The notes beneath the pieces are model-generated. The model saw only the letters and a list, made by a program, of their open reading frames with translations. It did not search any database and was not told where the DNA came from. Of a stretch of 64,000 bases of DNA, positions 13,044 to 56,178 are shown in pieces (position 1 is the stretch's first letter; each line of letters begins with the position of its first letter). The DNA comes from Modestobacter sp. Leaf380 (GTDB lineage Bacteria > Actinomycetota > Actinomycetes > Mycobacteriales > Geodermatophilaceae), in the NCBI RefSeq assembly GCF_001424485.1, contig NZ_LMQC01000004.1, positions 1 to 64,000 of the forward strand, read 5' to 3'. The position numbers were made by a program, and so were the translations under genes.

Positions 13044-14252
13044 TCAGACGGTGGCGTCCTCGGAGACCGAGTTGTCGCTGTTGTCGGAGAAGTCGTTGCC
13101 GTCGAAGGACTCGTCCACCGAGTTGTCGGAGAAGTCGTTGCCGCCGAACGAGTCGTTGACCGAGTTGTCGGAGTTGTCCGAGGAGTCCACCGAGTTGTCG
13201 CTGGCGTCGGTCCACACCGAGTTGTCCGAGGAGTCCACGGAGTTGTCGCTGCTGTCCGAGTTGTCGACGACGGAGTTGTCGCTGCTGTCCGAGTTGTCGA
13301 CGACGGAGTTGTCGCTGTTGTCGGAGGAGTCGACCGAGTTGTCGGAGTTGTCGCTGTTGTCCGACGAGTCCACGGAGTTGTCGCTGTTGTCGACCGAGTT
13401 GCCGGAGTTGTCGCTGTTGTCCGAGGAGTCGACCGAGTTGTCGCTGTTGTCCGAGTTGTCGCTGTTGTCGGAGTTGTCGACGACCGAGTTGTCGCTGTTG
13501 TCCGAGGAGTCCACGGAGTTGTCGCTGTTGTCGGAGTTGTCGACGACCGAGTTGTCGCTGTTGTCCGAGGAGTCCACGGAGTTGTCGCTGTTGTCGGACA
13601 GGTCGTTGCCGTTGAAGGAGTCCCGGACCGTGGTGGAGGAGTCCACCGAGTTGTCGCTGTGGTCGGAGTTGTCGACGACCGAGTTGTCGCTGTTGTCGGA
13701 GGCGTCGACCGAGCTGTCGTTGCCCGACGCGATGTCGCCGACGGTCACCGTGGTGACGCTGTTGTCCGAGGAGTCCCGGCCGTCGCGGGTCGAGGACCCG
13801 GCGCCGACGGCGTTGCTGTCGCCGATCACGTTGCTGGTGCCGATGACCTGGTAGGCGTCGCCCCCGGCCCACACGTCGTGCGAGTAGTCGTTGTGCACGC
13901 TGGCATCGGTGTAGCTGTAGGTCGCCTGCAGGACCTGCAGCTGCTCGACGGCCGACGTCGGCTCGGCGCCCGTGGCGGTCGCGGTGGCGGCCGGGGCGGC
14001 GGTGGCGGTGGCGGCCGCGTGGTCGGCGGTCCGGCCGGCGGCCGAGTGCACCGGGGCGGCCCCGGCGGCGGCCAGCGCGGGCACGTGCTCGGCGACGGCC
14101 GGCTCGAGGGCGGCCACGTCGGCGGCGTCGACGTCGGACAGACCGGCGTCGGCCAGCGCCCGGTCGGGGTCCTCGGCGAAGGCGCGGGCCGCGGCCGGGT
14201 CGCGCAGGAGGTCGAGGATGAAGGTCAGCAGCGAGCTGGCGATGTCGGACAC
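13044..14252 (-). CDS. iniB: IniB-like protein with giant Asp/Asn/Ser repeat
   Basis: 402 residues starting at GTG 14252 (GAGGAG upstream). Residues 1-50 (SSLLTFILDLLRDPAAARAF, EDPDRALADAGLSDVDAADV) match the IniB N-terminal domain. An Ala/Thr-rich linker and a short unique segment (YSYTDASVHNDYSHDVWAG) follow. From about residue 165 to the end the chain is a low-complexity repeat of SDNSDNSV / VDSSDNSD units with no Cys, Lys or Arg-rich parts, so it is strongly acidic and hydrophilic. There is no Sec signal. Mycobacterial IniB is instead Gly/Ala-rich, so only the N-terminal domain is shared. It is first in the minus-strand unit iniB-iniA-iniC and divergent from a LuxR regulator, as in Mycobacterium tuberculosis. 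Function unknown; a cell-envelope role is inferred from IniB. Confidence 0.8.
   Translation of the reverse strand: MSDIASSLLTFILDLLRDPAAARAFAEDPDRALADAGLSDVDAADVAALEPAVAEHVPALAAAGAAPVHSAAGRTADHAAATATAAPAATATATGAEPTSAVEQLQVLQATYSYTDASVHNDYSHDVWAGGDAYQVIGTSNVIGDSNAVGAGSSTRDGRDSSDNSVTTVTVGDIASGNDSSVDASDNSDNSVVDNSDHSDNSVDSSTTVRDSFNGNDLSDNSDNSVDSSDNSDNSVVDNSDNSDNSVDSSDNSDNSVVDNSDNSDNSDNSDNSVDSSDNSDNSGNSVDNSDNSVDSSDNSDNSDNSVDSSDNSDNSVVDNSDSSDNSVVDNSDSSDNSVDSSDNSVWTDASDNSVDSSDNSDNSVNDSFGGNDFSDNSVDESFDGNDFSDNSDNSVSEDATV
13060..13770 (-). repeat. Degenerate tandem repeat encoding DNSDNSV units
   Basis: About 700 bases made of GTTGTCGCTGTTGTC / GAGTTGTC-type blocks (plus-strand view), in phase with the reading frame. 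Copies differ at synonymous AGC/TCC serine codons, so the array has expanded and been kept in frame. Not a CRISPR: no spacers. Confidence 0.9.
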
Positions 14253-22180: not shown

Positions 22181-23209
22181 ATGAGCGGTGACGTGCGGTT
22201 CGGCCTGGTCGGCTACGGCTTCGGCGGGAGGTGGTTCCACGCCCCGCTGCTGGCAGCGGCACCCGGCGTCGACTTCCTCGGGGTGGTGACGACGTCGCCG
22301 GACCGGCAGGCGCAGGTCGCCGCCGAGCACCCGGGTGCCGCGACGTTCGCCTCCCTGCAGGCACTGGTCGACGCGGGCGCCGAGGCGGTGGCGATCTCCA
22401 CGCCGGCCGACACGCACAGCCCGCTGACCGACCAGGCGCTGGAGCTGGGGCTGGCCGTGGTCTGCGACAAGCCGTTCGCCCTGGACGCCCCGGCCGCGCT
22501 GGCCTCGGTGGAGCTGGCCGAGCGCGTGGGCCTGCCGCTGTCGCCGTACCAGAACCGCCGCTGGGACTCCGACTTCCTGACCGTGCAGCGGCTGGTGGCC
22601 GACGGCACCCTCGGCGAGGTCACGTCGCTGGAGTCCCGCTTCGAGCGGCTGACCCCGCAGGACGGCCCGGGCGCGGCCGGCGGCGGGACGCTGCGCGACT
22701 TCGGCAGCCACCTCGTCGACCAGGCCCTGGTGCTGCTGGGCCCGGTCGCCACGGTGTCGGCGCACTGGTCGCTGCGCGACTCGGGTCTGGACGACGACGT
22801 GCTCGTCGTCCTGCAGCACACCGCCGGCGGCCGCTCCGTGCTGGGCGGCAGCTGGCGGCAGGGCGCACCGGGCCCGCGCTTCCGGGTCACCGGCACCACG
22901 GGCAGCTACCTGGTCGACGGCATCGACGGCCAGGAGGACCACCTGGTCGCCGGCCGCTCCCCCGCCGACCTCGGCGACCGGTGGGGCGTGGAGCCCGAGT
23001 CGGCGTGGGGCCGGGTGCACCGCGGCGGCCCCGACGGCGAGCCGGTGCCGCCCGAGCGCGGCCGCTGGGACACCTTCTACCCGGCGTTCGCCGCGGCGGT
23101 CCGGGGCACCGGACCGGTGCCGGTGCCCGCGCGGGACGCCGTGGCCACCGCGACCGTGCTGGACGCCGCCCGGCGCAGCGCCACCGAGGGCACCGTGGTG
23201 TCGCTGTGA
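22181..23209 (+). CDS. Gfo/Idh/MocA-family oxidoreductase
   Basis: 342 residues. N-terminal Rossmann fold [18 protein letters not shown] binds NAD(P); the signature DKPFAL replaces the usual [13 protein letters not shown] and [17 protein letters not shown] (catalytic His region) are standard for YvaA/YdgJ-type sugar or polyol dehydrogenases. ATG 22181 is chosen, with an in-frame ATG at 22169 possible. Coupled to the following deaminase by a GTGA overlap. Substrate unknown. Confidence 0.88.
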
Positions 23210-23685
23210 GCCTCACCGCCGTCGACCGGGCGCACCTGGCCCGCTGCGTGGAGCTCGCCGAGGAGGCCCTGGAGGCCGGCGACGAGCCCTTCGGTTCCCT
23301 GCTCGTGGCCGCGGACGGCACCGTGCTCGCCGAGGACCGCAACCGGATCGCCGGCGGCGACGCCACCCGGCACCCGGAGTTCGAGCTGGCCCGCTGGGCC
23401 GCTGAGCACGTGGACCCGGCCGACCGGCCCTCGGCCACGGTCTACACCTCCGGCGAGCACTGCCCGATGTGCTCCGCGGCGCACGCCTGGGTGGGTCTGG
23501 GCCGGATCGTCTACGCCAGCTCCTCGGCCCAGCTCGCGCGGTGGCTCACCGAGCTCGGCGTCCCGGCCGGCCCGGTCGCCACCCTGCCGGTCACCACCGT
23601 CGCGCCGGGCATCCCGGTCGACGGCCCGGACGAGGAGCTCTCGGCCCGGGTGCGCGAGCTGCACGTCCGCCTGCACTCCTCCTGA
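23206..23685 (+). CDS. CMP/dCMP-deaminase-like nucleoside deaminase
   Basis: 159-residue zinc deaminase of the TadA/guanine-deaminase superfamily. Zinc motif first part HPEFEL (the usual H-A-E is H-P-E), second part EHCPMCSAAH (PCxxC type with His-Cys-Pro). EPFGSLLVAADGTVLAEDRN matches the substrate-binding strand. It probably deaminates a free base or nucleoside. GTG 23206 overlaps the oxidoreductase stop, so the two are likely co-translated. A strong terminator follows at 23695. Confidence 0.85.
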   Translation: MSLTAVDRAHLARCVELAEEALEAGDEPFGSLLVAADGTVLAEDRNRIAGGDATRHPEFELARWAAEHVDPADRPSATVYTSGEHCPMCSAAHAWVGLGRIVYASSSAQLARWLTELGVPAGPVATLPVTTVAPGIPVDGPDEELSARVRELHVRLHSS

Positions 23686-23694
23686 GCACGCGCA

Positions 23695-23724
23695 ACGCCC
23701 TCCCCGGCTGACCGGGGAGGGCGT
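23695..23724. terminator. Strong bidirectional terminator
   Basis: A 13-bp perfect stem (23695-23707 with 23712-23724) and 4-base loop lie between the deaminase gene and the convergent multi-cold-shock-domain gene. Confidence 0.85.
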
Positions 23725-23746
23725 CGTGCGTGGGCCGTGTCTCAGC

Positions 23747-25219
23747 TCAGAGGGGCTCGACCTGGTCGGCCTGCGGGCCGCGCTCGGCCGGGGTGGCGGT
23801 GAACTGCACCCGCTGCCCCTCCTCCAGGTCGCGGAACCCGCCCCGGTCGGCGATCGCGGAGAAGTGCACGAACACGTCGTCGCTGCCGTCGTCGGGGGCG
23901 ATGAACCCGAACCCCTTCTCGCCGTGGAACCACTTCACCGTGCCCTGCTGACCGCCCTCGATCGGGGGCAGGTCGGTGCGCGGCTCGCGCGGGGCGCGCT
24001 GCTGGCGGCCGGCGCCACGGGAGGGGTCCCGACGGGCCTCGCGGCGGGCCGGGTCGTGCCGCGGCGGCGGGCCGGCGCCGTCCAGCGGCCGGACGACGTC
24101 GGCCTGCGGGCCGCGGTCGCCCGAGGAGGCGGCGAACTCCACGCGCTGGCCCTCGGCCAGGTCGCCGTAGCCGCCGTCGTCCTCGATGACGGAGAAGTGC
24201 ACGAACACGTCGCGGCTGCCGTCGTCGGGCTCGACGAACCCGAAGCCCTTGTCGGCGTTGAAGAACCGGACGGTGCCCTGCTGCATGCCCGAGCCGGAGG
24301 GACGGCCCCGACCCTGGTCACGCCCCTGGTCGCGGCCCTGGCTGCCACCGCGGGCGCCGCCGGCGCCACCGCCGAGGGGCTGGACGTACGTGGCCTGCAG
24401 GCCGCGGTCGCCCTGGGCGGCCTCGAACTCGACCCGCTGGCCCTCCTCCAGGCTGCGGTAGCCGCCGTCGTCGGCGATCGCGGAGAAGTGCACGAACACG
24501 TCGTCGCCGCCGTCGTCGGGCTGCAGGAAGCCGAAGCCCTTGTCGCCGTTGAAGAACCGCACGGTGGCCTGCGGCAGACCGGAGCCCTGCGCGCCGGCCT
24601 GGCTCCCGCCGCCGTGGCCGCCACGGTCGTCGGACCCGCCACCGCCACCGCCACCACCGCCGCCGGAGAGCGGCTCGACGTGGGTGGCCTGCACCCCGCG
24701 GTCGCCCTGCGCGGCCTCGAAGAGCACCCGCTGGCCCTCCTCCAGGCTGCGGTAGCCGCCGTCGTCGGCGATCGCGGAGAAGTGCACGAAGACGTCGTCG
24801 CCGCCGTCGTCGGGGGTGATGAAGCCGAACCCCTTCTCGGAGTTGAAGAACTGCACGGTGCCCTCGGCACCGCCACCGGAGGCACGCGGCGCACGGGCCG
24901 GCTCGCGGCGCGGGGCCTCGCGACGGGGCGCGCGCTCCTCGCGGCGATCGTCCCGGCGGTCGTCCCGGCGGGGCTCGCGGGACTGCGAGCGGTCGACCTG
25001 GACCGGCGGGCCGCCCAGCAGGTGGACGCGGTCGGCCTGCAGGCCGCGCTGGCCGGGGCTGGCGGTGTAGTCGACCCGGGCGCCCTCGTCCAGGCTGCGG
25101 AAGCCGCCGGTCTCCTCGATCGCGGAGAAGTGCACGAAGACGTCCTCACCGCCGTCGTCGGGTCCGATGAAGCCGAACCCCTTCTCGGCGTTGAACCACT
25201 TCACGAAGCCCTGCGGCAT
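23747..25219 (-). CDS. Protein with five cold-shock domains
   Basis: 490 residues holding five complete CspA-type domains at about 2-67, 119-184, 217-282, 315-380 and 426-490. Each has the RNP1-like KGFGF and RNP2-like DVFVHFS (repeat 4 has HFSVI). Domains 1 and 5 keep VKWF; domains 2-4 have VQFF/VRFF, so one aromatic differs. Linkers are disordered: Arg/Glu-rich after domain 1, poly-Gly after 2, RDQGR repeats after 3, Arg/Pro-rich after 4. It should bind single-stranded RNA or DNA with high avidity. ATG 25219 follows AGGAG by 6 bases; a GTG 5 codons upstream is possible. Bacterial Csps are usually single domains; five in tandem recalls animal UNR/CSDE1. Confidence 0.93.
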
Positions 25220-25320
25220 GCCCTGCTCCTGCACTCACTCGACGTCCATCCGGTTCCTGCGGGGTCCAGCCTCCCACCTGGCCGGGTGCGCCGGGGTGCC
25301 CGCCCACCCGGGCGGGGGAC

Positions 25321-26472
25321 TCAGTCCTCGGGGGCGTGCACGGGACGGGGCGCCAGGACCAGGCACATCGCCCCGATCGCGGCCAGCAGCCACAGGCTGA
25401 CGAACCGGTAGACGACGACCGCGGGCACCGCCTGGGCGGCGGGCAGCCCGGCCGCGACGAGCGCGGAGGCCATCGCGGCCTCGACGACGCCGATGCCGCC
25501 GGGGGTCAGCCGGGTCGAGGACACCAGCGCACCGGCCGCCCAGGCGAGCACGACGCCCTGCCAGGGCAGCCCGGCGCCGACGGCCAGCACCGACAGGCCC
25601 AGGCAGACCGCGTCGAGGACCCAGTTCGCCAGGGCCAGGCCACCGGCGGTCGCCGCGTTGCGGAAGCCGGGACGGATCGCCCCCAGCGAGGTGAGGACGC
25701 CGTCCACGGCCGGTCCGACGACGGCCGGGCGCAGCACCGACCACCAGCGGGCGAACGGCGCCACCGCGCCCTGCAGCAGCTTGACCACCAGGTGCTTGGC
25801 CTCGGGGCTGCGGGTGACCGCCAGCAGCGTGAGGACCGGCACGACGGCGGCGACCGAGGCCAGCGACGCGACGGCGGCGCCGACGGTGGAGCCGGTGGCC
25901 GCGGAGCTGACCGCCACGACGGCGGCCAGGCTGACGGTGGAGCAGACCCCGGACACGGCCAGCGTCCAGCTGACCAGCACCGGGTTGTTGCCCAGGTCGC
26001 GCATCCGCCGGTAGGTGTAGGCGACGCTGGCCGCGGAGCCGGCCAGCGGCAGCCCGACGGCGATCGCGTTGCCGCCGTAGACGGTGACGGTGAGGTTCCC
26101 GGTGGGCGCGTGGCCGCCGCCCGAGCGCAGCAGCAGCCGCTGCTGGGACACCAGGCACTGCATCGAGACCAGCTGGACGACCGCGGCCAGCAGCGCCCAG
26201 CGCCACTCGGCCCCCGCCAGGGTCTCCAGCCAGCCCAGGATCGACTGCCGGAACACCACGACGGCCACGACCGTGCCCAGGGCCAGGACGCCGGTGAGCA
26301 CCGGCCGCCACCAGCGGGCCACCGCGGAGGCCCGGACCGCGGCGATCGGGCCCGACCCGGGTCCCGGTGCGGGCGCCGGTGTCGGCGCCGGTGCAGGGCC
26401 GCCCGGCCGTCCGGTGGCCCCGGGGGCGGGCACGCCGTCTCCCGCTCCCGTCCGGTGCTGGGGGTCGGTCAT
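25321..26472 (-). CDS. LPG synthetase-type membrane protein (YbhN/UPF0104)
   Basis: 383 residues, Pro/Ala-rich cytoplasmic N-terminus then about eight membrane segments. YGGNAIAVGLPLAGSAASVAYTYRRM and STRLTPGGIGVVEAAMASALVAAGL are the two conserved signature regions of the lysylphosphatidylglycerol synthase transmembrane (flippase-like) family. No catalytic aminoacyl-transferase domain, so a lipid or polyprenol transport role is more likely. ATG 26472 chosen because the open frame upstream crosses a promoter-like gap. Confidence 0.85.
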   Translation of the reverse strand: MTDPQHRTGAGDGVPAPGATGRPGGPAPAPTPAPAPGPGSGPIAAVRASAVARWWRPVLTGVLALGTVVAVVVFRQSILGWLETLAGAEWRWALLAAVVQLVSMQCLVSQQRLLLRSGGGHAPTGNLTVTVYGGNAIAVGLPLAGSAASVAYTYRRMRDLGNNPVLVSWTLAVSGVCSTVSLAAVVAVSSAATGSTVGAAVASLASVAAVVPVLTLLAVTRSPEAKHLVVKLLQGAVAPFARWWSVLRPAVVGPAVDGVLTSLGAIRPGFRNAATAGGLALANWVLDAVCLGLSVLAVGAGLPWQGVVLAWAAGALVSSTRLTPGGIGVVEAAMASALVAAGLPAAQAVPAVVVYRFVSLWLLAAIGAMCLVLAPRPVHAPED

Positions 26473-27064: not shown

Positions 27065-27100
27065 CCAGGAGTGTCGGTGGGGGGCCGTAGCGTCTCCCCC

Positions 27101-28786
27101 ATGAGCCGTACGCACCCCGAGCTGAAGACCCCGCCGGCACTGGCCGAGGGAGGCCTCCGGATCGTGGCGCTGGGCGGGCTCGGCGAGATCGGCCGGAACA
27201 TGACCGTCTTCGAGTTCGGCGGCAAGCTGCTGATCGTCGACTGCGGCGTCCTGTTCCCCGAGGAGCACCAGCCCGGCGTCGACGTGATCCTCCCCGACTT
27301 CACCTCCATCCGGGACCGGATGGACGACGTCCTGGCGGTCGTGCTGACGCACGGGCACGAGGACCACATCGGTGGCGTGCCCTACCTGCTGCGCGAGCGC
27401 CGCGACATCCCGCTGGTCGGCTCCAAGCTGACCCTGGCCTTCATCAAGGCCAAGCTCGAGGAGCACCGGATCAAGCCGGTCACCCGCGAGGTCGCCGAGG
27501 GCGACACGCTGGACTTCGGGCCCTTCGAGACCGAGTTCCTCGCGGTCAACCACTCCATCCCCGACGCGCTGGCCGTGGCCATCCGCACCGAGGCCGGCCT
27601 GGTGCTGCACACCGGTGACTTCAAGATGGACCAGTTCCCGCTGGACCGCCGGATCACCGACCTGCGCGGGTTCGCCCGGCTCGGCGAGGAGGGCGTCGAC
27701 CTCTTCCTCACCGACTCCACCAACGCCGAGGTCCCGGGGTTCACCCTGTCCGAGGGCGACCTGGTCCCGGCCATCGAGACCGTGTTCCGGACCGCCCCCA
27801 AGCGGGTCATCGTCTCCAGCTTCGCCAGCCACGTGCACCGCATCCAGCAGGTGCTCAACGCCGCGCACGCGCACGGCCGCAAGGTCGCCTTCGTGGGCCG
27901 CTCGATGGTGCGCAACATGGGCATCGCCCGTGACCTGGGCTACCTGGACATCCCCAAGGGCCTGGTCGTGGACCTCAAGCAGATGGACAAGCTGCCCGCC
28001 GACCAGGTCTGCGTCATCTGCACCGGGTCCCAGGGCGAGCCGATGGCGGCGCTGTCGAGGATGGCCAACCGCGACCACGTCATCCGCATCTCCGAGGGCG
28101 ACACCGTGCTGCTGGCCAGCTCGCTCATCCCCGGCAACGAGAACGCCATCTACCGGATCATCAACGAGCTGACCCGCTGGGGCGCCAACGTCGTGCACAA
28201 GGGCAACGCCAAGGTGCACGTCTCCGGTCACGCCAGCGCCGGTGAGCTCGTCTACTGCTACAACATCGTCAAGCCGCGCAACGTCATGCCGGTGCACGGC
28301 GAGTGGCGCCACCTCAAGGCCAACGGCGAGCTGGCGATCAAGACCGGCGTGCACCCCCGCGGTGTCGTGCTCGCCGAGGACGGTCAGGTCGTCGACCTCG
28401 TCGACGGCCGGGTCCGGGTCACCGGCAAGGTCAGCGCCGGCAACGTCTACGTCGACGGCGCGACCGTGGGCGGGGCGACCGAGGCCTCGCTGAAGGACCG
28501 CCGCAACCTGGCCGAGGAGGGCGTGATCACCGTCGTGGCGATCGTCGACGCCGACACCGGCCTGCTCGCCGAGACCCCGGACTTCCTGGCCCGCGGCTTC
28601 GTGCACGACGAGGGCACGTTCGACTCGGTCGTGCCACTGATCGAGAAGGCGCTGGCCAAGGCCGCCGAGGAGGGCGTGGGCGGTGCGCTCCAGCTCGAGC
28701 AGCTGATCACCCGCGCCGTCGCCGGCTGGGCCAACCGCAACGGCCGCCGCAGCCCGATGATCATCCCGGTGGTCATCGACGCCTGA
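27101..28786 (+). CDS. rnj: Ribonuclease J
   Basis: 561-residue metallo-beta-lactamase/beta-CASP nuclease for mRNA and rRNA processing. Zinc site: VVLTHGHEDHIGGVPYLL, later GDFKMDQFPLD and HVSGHASAGEL; beta-CASP motif DSTNAE and SSFASHVHRIQQ. GGLGEIGRNM at the N-terminus is the RNase J signature. ATG 27101 chosen; the usual upstream neighbour in actinobacteria (dapA) is not present here. A 38-base perfect palindrome terminates it. Confidence 0.96.
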   Translation: MSRTHPELKTPPALAEGGLRIVALGGLGEIGRNMTVFEFGGKLLIVDCGVLFPEEHQPGVDVILPDFTSIRDRMDDVLAVVLTHGHEDHIGGVPYLLRERRDIPLVGSKLTLAFIKAKLEEHRIKPVTREVAEGDTLDFGPFETEFLAVNHSIPDALAVAIRTEAGLVLHTGDFKMDQFPLDRRITDLRGFARLGEEGVDLFLTDSTNAEVPGFTLSEGDLVPAIETVFRTAPKRVIVSSFASHVHRIQQVLNAAHAHGRKVAFVGRSMVRNMGIARDLGYLDIPKGLVVDLKQMDKLPADQVCVICTGSQGEPMAALSRMANRDHVIRISEGDTVLLASSLIPGNENAIYRIINELTRWGANVVHKGNAKVHVSGHASAGELVYCYNIVKPRNVMPVHGEWRHLKANGELAIKTGVHPRGVVLAEDGQVVDLVDGRVRVTGKVSAGNVYVDGATVGGATEASLKDRRNLAEEGVITVVAIVDADTGLLAETPDFLARGFVHDEGTFDSVVPLIEKALAKAAEEGVGGALQLEQLITRAVAGWANRNGRRSPMIIPVVIDA

Positions 28787-56040: not shown

Positions 56041-56178
56041 TCCTTGTCTTCCGTCGGCCGCCTACCGGGTTAGCTGACGGGTTCGGGCGGGAAGACTCCC
56101 TACCGTCCCGGCCGCTGACGCGGTCGGCACGGATTCACCCCAGTGCTGCGGTGGGTCCCCGGTTCGCCGGTGGTGCTC
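56041..56178 (-). promoter_or_regulatory. c-di-AMP riboswitch (ydaO-yuaA class)
   Basis: On the minus strand the leader contains CGAACCGGGGACCCA, then GGGGTGAATCC, then AGGGAGTCTTCC, then CCGCCCGAACCCGTCAGCTA and ACCCGGTAGGC, ending GACGGAAGAC. These are the conserved blocks of the ydaO RNA in the right order. It ends about 15 bases before the start codon of the transglycosylase-like gene. c-di-AMP binding to this class normally turns expression off. Ends of the element are approximate. Confidence 0.9.

Follow-up and report, generated by a model that had tools for sequence, protein, structure and literature searches.

The window, the 64,000-nucleotide stretch of DNA that was analyzed, contains a gene for five cold-shock domains in one chain. 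The protein is a genuine, conserved multi-domain variant of the cold-shock protein (Csp) family and is undescribed as far as we searched. The open reading frame covers 23747..25234 on the reverse strand, and the ATG at 25219 gives a product of 490 amino acids (aa). The Pfam family PF00313 matched this protein at five stretches with 407.6 bits (E 6e-125, curated cut-off 27), and the RNP1 (KGFGF) and RNP2 (VFVHFS) motifs are complete in all five domains, confirming the domain count given in an earlier note on this DNA. The parts of the gene are listed in Table 1. Long open reading frames are also present antisense to the array gene; a wrong reading frame was ruled out by the Pfam match together with pN/pS.

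Table 1. Features of the five-domain gene and its upstream region in the window (CSD, cold-shock domain)
Feature	Position	Strand	Remarks
Five-CSD gene	23747..25219	-	ATG start, 490 aa, PF00313, pN/pS 0.16-0.34 in domains
Cold-shock domain 1	25022..25213	-	aa 3-66, KWF type
Linker 1	24866..25021	-	52 aa; Arg 29 percent, Asp plus Glu 19 percent, Lys absent
Cold-shock domain 2	24674..24865	-	aa 119-182, QFF type
Linker 2	24572..24673	-	34 aa, Gly 53 percent
Cold-shock domain 3	24380..24571	-	aa 217-280, RFF type, 83 percent identity to domain 2
Linker 3	24281..24379	-	33 aa, Gly/Arg with RDQGR stretch
Cold-shock domain 4	24089..24280	-	aa 314-377, RFF type
Linker 4	23948..24088	-	47 aa, Arg/Pro-rich
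Cold-shock domain 5	23756..23947	-	aa 425-488, KWF type
AGGAG ribosome-binding site	25226..25230	-	6 nt ahead of ATG; GCAGGAGCAGGGC ahead of ATG in 8/8 Klenkia upstream regions
TGGGAGGCTG block, candidate -10 region of own promoter (inferred)	25267..25276	-	conserved Klenkia 10-mer

Excerpts of a review describe bacterial Csps as single-domain proteins (PMC7825780), in line with the earlier note's statement that this is the normal state, and the five-domain array is thus unusual. The classical bacterial Csp is a single domain of ~70 aa, whereas this protein has 490 aa and five domains. Each domain is a canonical Csp domain with complete RNP1 and RNP2, as in the single-domain CspA/CspE family (PF00313); the difference lies in the five copies per chain and in the linkers of 33-52 aa, rich in Arg, Gly or Pro, that join them. 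The NCBIfam models that match the protein carry CspE/CspA antiterminator names, and we take such CspA-type and CspE-type matches as a description of the domains rather than of a demonstrated function.

The animal protein UNR/CSDE1, to which the array had been likened, resembles it in architecture, with five canonical domains on one chain, but is not its kin. Among the best 60 of 193 matches in a search of solved structures, single bacterial Csps came first (for example 5o6f, E 6.5e-22), and CSDE1 (2yty, E 0.015) and Unr (7zhh, E 0.03) matched weakly, which rules out homology. According to the excerpted text of PMC7383231, UNR has five canonical and four non-canonical cold-shock domains with fixed spacing. 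The non-canonical domains of UNR lie between the canonical ones, whereas the window linkers are of low complexity and not long enough to conceal such a domain; non-canonical domains are absent from the protein. UNR also has a fixed domain orientation; the linkers vary from 15 to 55 aa across Klenkia, which speaks against fixed spacing.

Bacterial proteins with more than one cold-shock domain have been described. Excerpts of PMC7383231 mention that a protein of Clostridium has cold-shock domains of both the canonical and the non-canonical kind, the number of which is not given there, and excerpts of PMC4830024 describe Caulobacter CspD. The latter, likened to the array by its description, has two domains only and comes from another phylum. 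Two-domain proteins of Alphaproteobacteria (L016, L017) were separate from the family arrays in our domain tree. Bacterial proteins typically have six S1 domains at most, as stated in an excerpt of PMC12787238. Ribosomal protein S1, like other proteins with several S1 domains, places multiple OB-folds per chain on single-stranded RNA, but these proteins are built of S1 domains rather than cold-shock domains; the proposed analogy is one of function only. Arrays of three to five cold-shock domains were not found described among the papers listed from the open-access literature on multi-domain Csps, Geodermatophilaceae and Klenkia. Judged by titles and the opening of abstracts, the papers listed for multi-domain Csps deal with UNR/CSDE1, with further eukaryotic or general subjects in cold shock and RNA binding, with CSD in another sense, or with something else altogether, and the excerpted part of a paper on Csps of Antarctic biocrust does not name a multi-domain Csp (PMC10459675).

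Conservation and selection in Klenkia

The window comes from a bacterium of the genus Klenkia in the family Geodermatophilaceae. The Klenkia sample consisted of nine genomes, with the window's genome counted among them. A search for related loci found seven Klenkia records (L008-L014) with best-segment identities of 76-84 percent. Among the matches listed, there were seven cold-shock-domain matches per genome in all nine Klenkia genomes, five of which belong to the array or its pieces. Seven genomes (the window, G001, G002, G003, G004, G006, and G008) have the five domains in one frame. In G005, a single-contig genome (L052), domain 5 is out of frame with domain 4, which is either a sequencing error or a loss of domain 5 that occurred naturally. 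The G007 array is cut off behind domain 4 by the end of its contig, and one more domain match is found on a separate contig. The earlier note had raised the possibility that the gene is a collapsed or expanded assembly of single csp genes. Such an artifact was ruled out, as assemblies made independently, with contigs as long as 4.7 Mb, all show these five positions again.

Over the seven complete Klenkia genes, pN/pS was 0.164, 0.242, 0.255, 0.191, and 0.341 for domains 1 to 5 and 0.468 for the linkers. All five domains are under purifying selection, and the array is maintained by selection in Klenkia. Identity at the same position across the seven Klenkia proteins averages 87-96 percent, compared to 62-83 percent between positions inside the window protein. 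In a FastTree domain tree, the Klenkia domains group by position into five clades (supports of 0.94, 0.88, 0.0, 1.0, and 1.0 for positions 1 to 5), so the five-domain state is older than the sampled Klenkia species. Positions 2 and 3 form a joint clade with a support of 0.84; from this grouping and their high identity, the duplication that gave rise to domains 2 and 3 looks like the youngest in the Klenkia array.

The upstream region of the array gene is also conserved in this genus. The block TGGGA[CG]GCTG lies at -51 to -60 in all eight Klenkia upstream regions compared (G007 not included) and is a candidate for the -10 region of a promoter belonging to the array gene itself. The same 10-mer stands ahead of the g3 array (genus labels are explained below), and one g4 locus (L100) has GGGAGGCTG; it is absent ahead of the remaining genes compared in the upstream scan. 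No consensus sigma-70 promoter or terminator was found within 23200-25900. A cspA-type RNA thermoregulator has no support, since the sole Rfam match in the window at the gathering threshold is unrelated. That match is a c-di-AMP riboswitch (RF00379, ydaO/yuaA leader) at 56064-56163 on the reverse strand, with 55.2 bits.

Distribution and surroundings of the arrays

Genera within the family are labeled g1 (Klenkia) to g12. Two DNA patterns for neighboring KGFGF motifs were utilized in the survey, the first with a spacing of 83-103 aa and the second with a longer one. Both require an AAG-coded lysine before GFGF and a set spacing, and all counts are therefore lower bounds. The union of the two patterns caught 16 of 17 genomes with known arrays, missing G011, and the first pattern alone caught 15 of the 16 to which it was applied. 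Coverage of the family was 75 genomes for the first pattern and 112 for the union. The union matched 46 of the 112 and, with the G011 array that is known by reading, at least 47 family genomes carry an array. Thus, of the earlier note's concern that such proteins might be common and described in this clade, the first half is borne out; a description was not found in the literature searched.

Arrays occur in every genome of g1 (9/9), g2 (3/3), g3 (1/1), and g9 (1/1), in 14 of 26 genomes of g4, and in 19 of 23 of g6. None of 49 genomes of g5, g7, g8, g10, g11, and g12 showed an array by the two patterns, a method that gives lower bounds. Ten of the 12 pattern-negative g4 genomes still have six to eight domain matches among the matches listed, so g4 is probably undercounted. 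Among the arrays that were read, those of g2, g9, and most of g6 have four domains and those of g3 and g4 have three. The exceptions in g6 are G100, with three domains, and G810, which shows two at a contig edge. Five domains were found in Klenkia only, and arrays of three or four occur in five further genera of the family; these relatives rule out the array as an invention of Klenkia alone. The three-domain arrays of G010 (g3; L056:4294-5109) and G011 (g4; L057:4273-5121) have a shortened middle domain of 57-58 aa in which the pre-RNP2 loop is absent.

Outside the family, the first pattern matched 2 of 322 genomes of the order, 0 of 395 in a draw from the phylum, and 2 of 392 in a draw from the class (the draws overlap). 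This amounts to 4 of 1033 distinct non-family genomes with a multi-domain gene, a lower bound by the first pattern alone. As a control, the pattern read backwards gave zero matches in the family, order, phylum, and class surveys. The four genes, all from Actinomycetes, were read and encode four domains in G177, G831, and G852 and two in G243. Their linkers are 13-34 aa long in G177, G831, and G243 and 13-58 aa in G852. Lysine is present in the linkers of G831 and G852, unlike in the family arrays. We infer that these proteins probably have origins separate from the family arrays. The G177 and G831 proteins (L097 and L157) represent a second four-domain type with short linkers; they are 67-68 percent identical over 315 aa and come from genomes of different orders. 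Horizontal transfer or a rare old family is possible for this type.

In the window, the array gene lies downstream of a same-strand LPG_synthase_TM (flippase-like) gene, and on its other side deaminase and Gfo/Idh genes point toward it. An RNase J gene at 27071-28786 on the forward strand lies upstream of the array, with two genes in between. RNase J is near the array in all six long Klenkia loci examined (L048-L053) and was not found beside the arrays of other genera; its proximity may be due to chance. Flanks of mostly about 4-5 kb per side were compared (<2.5 kb for L100-L106 and one side of L057). Six flank proteins of the window were sought beside the arrays of other genera and none was found, save a weak Gfo/Idh match in L105. 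Within g6, the loci L058/L062/L106 have no flanking DNA similarity in common with L102/L103/L104. The arrays of G011 and G010 adjoin a large gene, presumably helicase-like by its motif, and another g4 array (G021) does not. Some stretches are common: one of 390-499 bases with 76-78 percent identity between the g2 loci and G021, one between L060 (g2) and L062 (g6), and one of 153 bases between L061 and L105. A single conserved locus for all arrays is therefore unsupported, as the flanks mostly differ. Either the array gene moved or it arose more than once.

Proposed function and alternatives

Our best reading of the protein sequence, held with moderate confidence, is a multivalent chaperone of single-stranded RNA (or ssDNA) that would act by avidity. 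RNA as the main ligand, the avidity, a role in stress, and the disorder of the linkers, suggested by their composition, are the conjectural parts of this reading. As summarized in the review excerpts (PMC7825780), Csp domains hold single-stranded nucleic acid through bases that stack on aromatic residues at the domain surface, and their selectivity for sequence is limited. Five CspA-like beta-barrels would each hold a few unpaired bases through the aromatics of RNP1 and RNP2 and would be joined by flexible, lysine-free, mostly cationic linkers. Through tethering, five contacts that are each weak and poorly selective would combine into a single avid one with a long unstructured RNA (or ssDNA), and under stress the mRNA would be shielded or kept from folding. 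Electrostatic contacts may be added by the Arg-rich linkers, either with RNA phosphates or with acidic domains, be it in the same chain or in a neighboring one. The five intact domains, the conserved positions and RNP motifs, the purifying selection, the lysine-free linkers, the acidic domains with mostly cationic linkers, the best structure matches to single bacterial Csps, and the constant Trp of the first domain count in favor of a chaperone. Points against it are the following: there is no RNA-related neighbor common across genera, where flanks mostly differ; many inner domains have lost the Trp; multi-domain proteins outside the family (G831, G852) have lysine in their linkers; and cold-shock domains could just as well bind DNA.

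The position before RNP1 differs along the chain. The earlier note had observed a Trp-to-Phe change in the inner three domains, and this was verified: they read VQFF, VRFF, and VRFF, W is retained in domains 1 and 5, and the same is true of the seven complete Klenkia arrays. Across 22 family arrays, Trp is found in the first domain of all 22 and in the last domain of 16. In 17 of the 22, Trp is missing from one or more inner domains, with Phe instead in Klenkia and five of seven g6 arrays and Arg in g2, g3, and G011. All 20 single Csps of the family that were read have Trp here. Among the single-domain rows of fetched non-family relatives (L015-L047), Phe occurs in 29 of 31, in a search that used FF-containing peptides. 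The change from Trp to Phe is ordinary among bacterial Csps at large, and inside the family it was found in arrays only. The loss of Trp from inner domains, to Phe in some genera and Arg in others, looks like a parallel loss. Since Trp is missing from inner domains of 17 of 22 arrays, the domains need not all bind RNA equally, and the pattern would fit a divided labor among them, in keeping with the earlier note's idea that the change may tune base preference.

The linkers of the 22 family arrays vary in sequence and length yet remain lysine-free, with 557 Arg and 0 Lys. For comparison, the remaining crude gene calls of the window give a K/(K+R) of 0.125, and a larger set of control gene calls gives 0.107. 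In 28 control segments of low hydrophobicity it is 0.055 (7 K, 121 R), a small set that includes some doubtful, possibly wrong-frame gene calls. Part of the lysine-free effect is thus accounted for by the bias in composition that disordered sequence of high GC content has. The missing lysine does not serve as a test of function, since the control segments are few, crude, and poor in lysine to begin with, and the 22 arrays share a relationship. Elsewhere in the window, a crude gene call at 13044-14252 has long DNSDNS/VDSSDNS repeats.

Linkers of this kind could also mean that the array is a condensate scaffold, in which RNA-binding domains and Arg/Gly linkers phase-separate with RNA in cold, drying, or starvation and mRNA is stored as a bacterial RNP granule. 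We consider this unlikely. Phase-separating RG/RGG RNA-binding proteins have RG/RGG repeats and aromatic stickers in their disordered regions. The alternation of several domains with lysine-free, Arg/Gly-rich linkers is what such a scaffold would have, and the linkers of the six other complete Klenkia arrays contain one to four Tyr. The three g2 arrays have 9-10 RG, and RGG motifs are commoner in the g2 array. The window linkers, however, contain no Tyr, Phe, or Trp, and the RG motifs pointed out in the earlier note are few (four across the linkers), although the RDQGR stretch is present in linker 3 and poly-Gly mainly in linker 2. Net charge in the window protein is -5 to -9 for each domain and +5, -1, +3, and +3 for the linkers; linker 2 is nearly uncharged and acidic residues make up 6-19 percent of the linkers, which also argues against condensation.

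Another possible explanation, to which we give a similarly small chance, is a dosage effect: the array merely lets one gene supply five Csp domains of the ordinary kind in place of single csp genes that the genus lost, and the tethering has no function. Beyond the array, just two matches to the cold-shock domain are present in the window genome: one is a CspA-type protein of 67 aa, counted from its ATG, and the other is a longer frame that is CspB-like. One array-free genome each of g7, g11, and g12 (G018, G019, G014) has three single-domain types and one unread match among the matches listed, and the window genome has only the MPEGTV type of these three besides its CspB-like frame. The variation in domain number from three to five between genera would also suit mere supply. 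On the other hand, G009 (g2) and G010 (g3) retain all three single types alongside their arrays, and in Klenkia positions 1, 4, and 5 are still distinct and the linkers are retained. In G013 (g6), two of the three types were read and one further match, among the matches listed, was not. Single Csps were possibly replaced by the array in Klenkia, and no general rule emerges.

Finally, a role on ssDNA or in transcription, with the array coating ssDNA or acting as an antiterminator on nascent transcripts, is quite improbable: the review excerpts state that both RNA and ssDNA are bound by cold-shock domains (PMC7825780) and the antiterminator names of the NCBIfam matches point the same way, but a good Csp domain of any kind can score with such models, which happens five times in this protein, repair or transcription genes were not found among the Klenkia flanks tested, and the helicase-like neighbor in G010 and G011 is one context only.

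Meaning for the family

The Geodermatophilaceae are actinobacteria of rock, desert, and soil. In a wider and more speculative picture, which as a whole we hold to be rather doubtful, the family would have evolved its own beads-on-a-string RNA chaperone in parallel to animal UNR, with acidic barrels, lysine-free Arg linkers, and up to five domains. The first domain would keep Trp for grip, and the inner domains would be retuned from Trp to Phe or Arg. Such a protein may gather mRNA into protective assemblies in drying or cold, and in Klenkia it may have assumed the role of single Csps that were lost there.

Some genera of the family have a selected array of three to five domains with composition-constrained linkers, which was not found in others. 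To our knowledge, the effects of domain number and linker chemistry have so far been studied mainly in eukaryotic proteins. The natural series of one, three, four, and five domains would allow tests of how both affect RNA affinity, chaperoning, and condensation.
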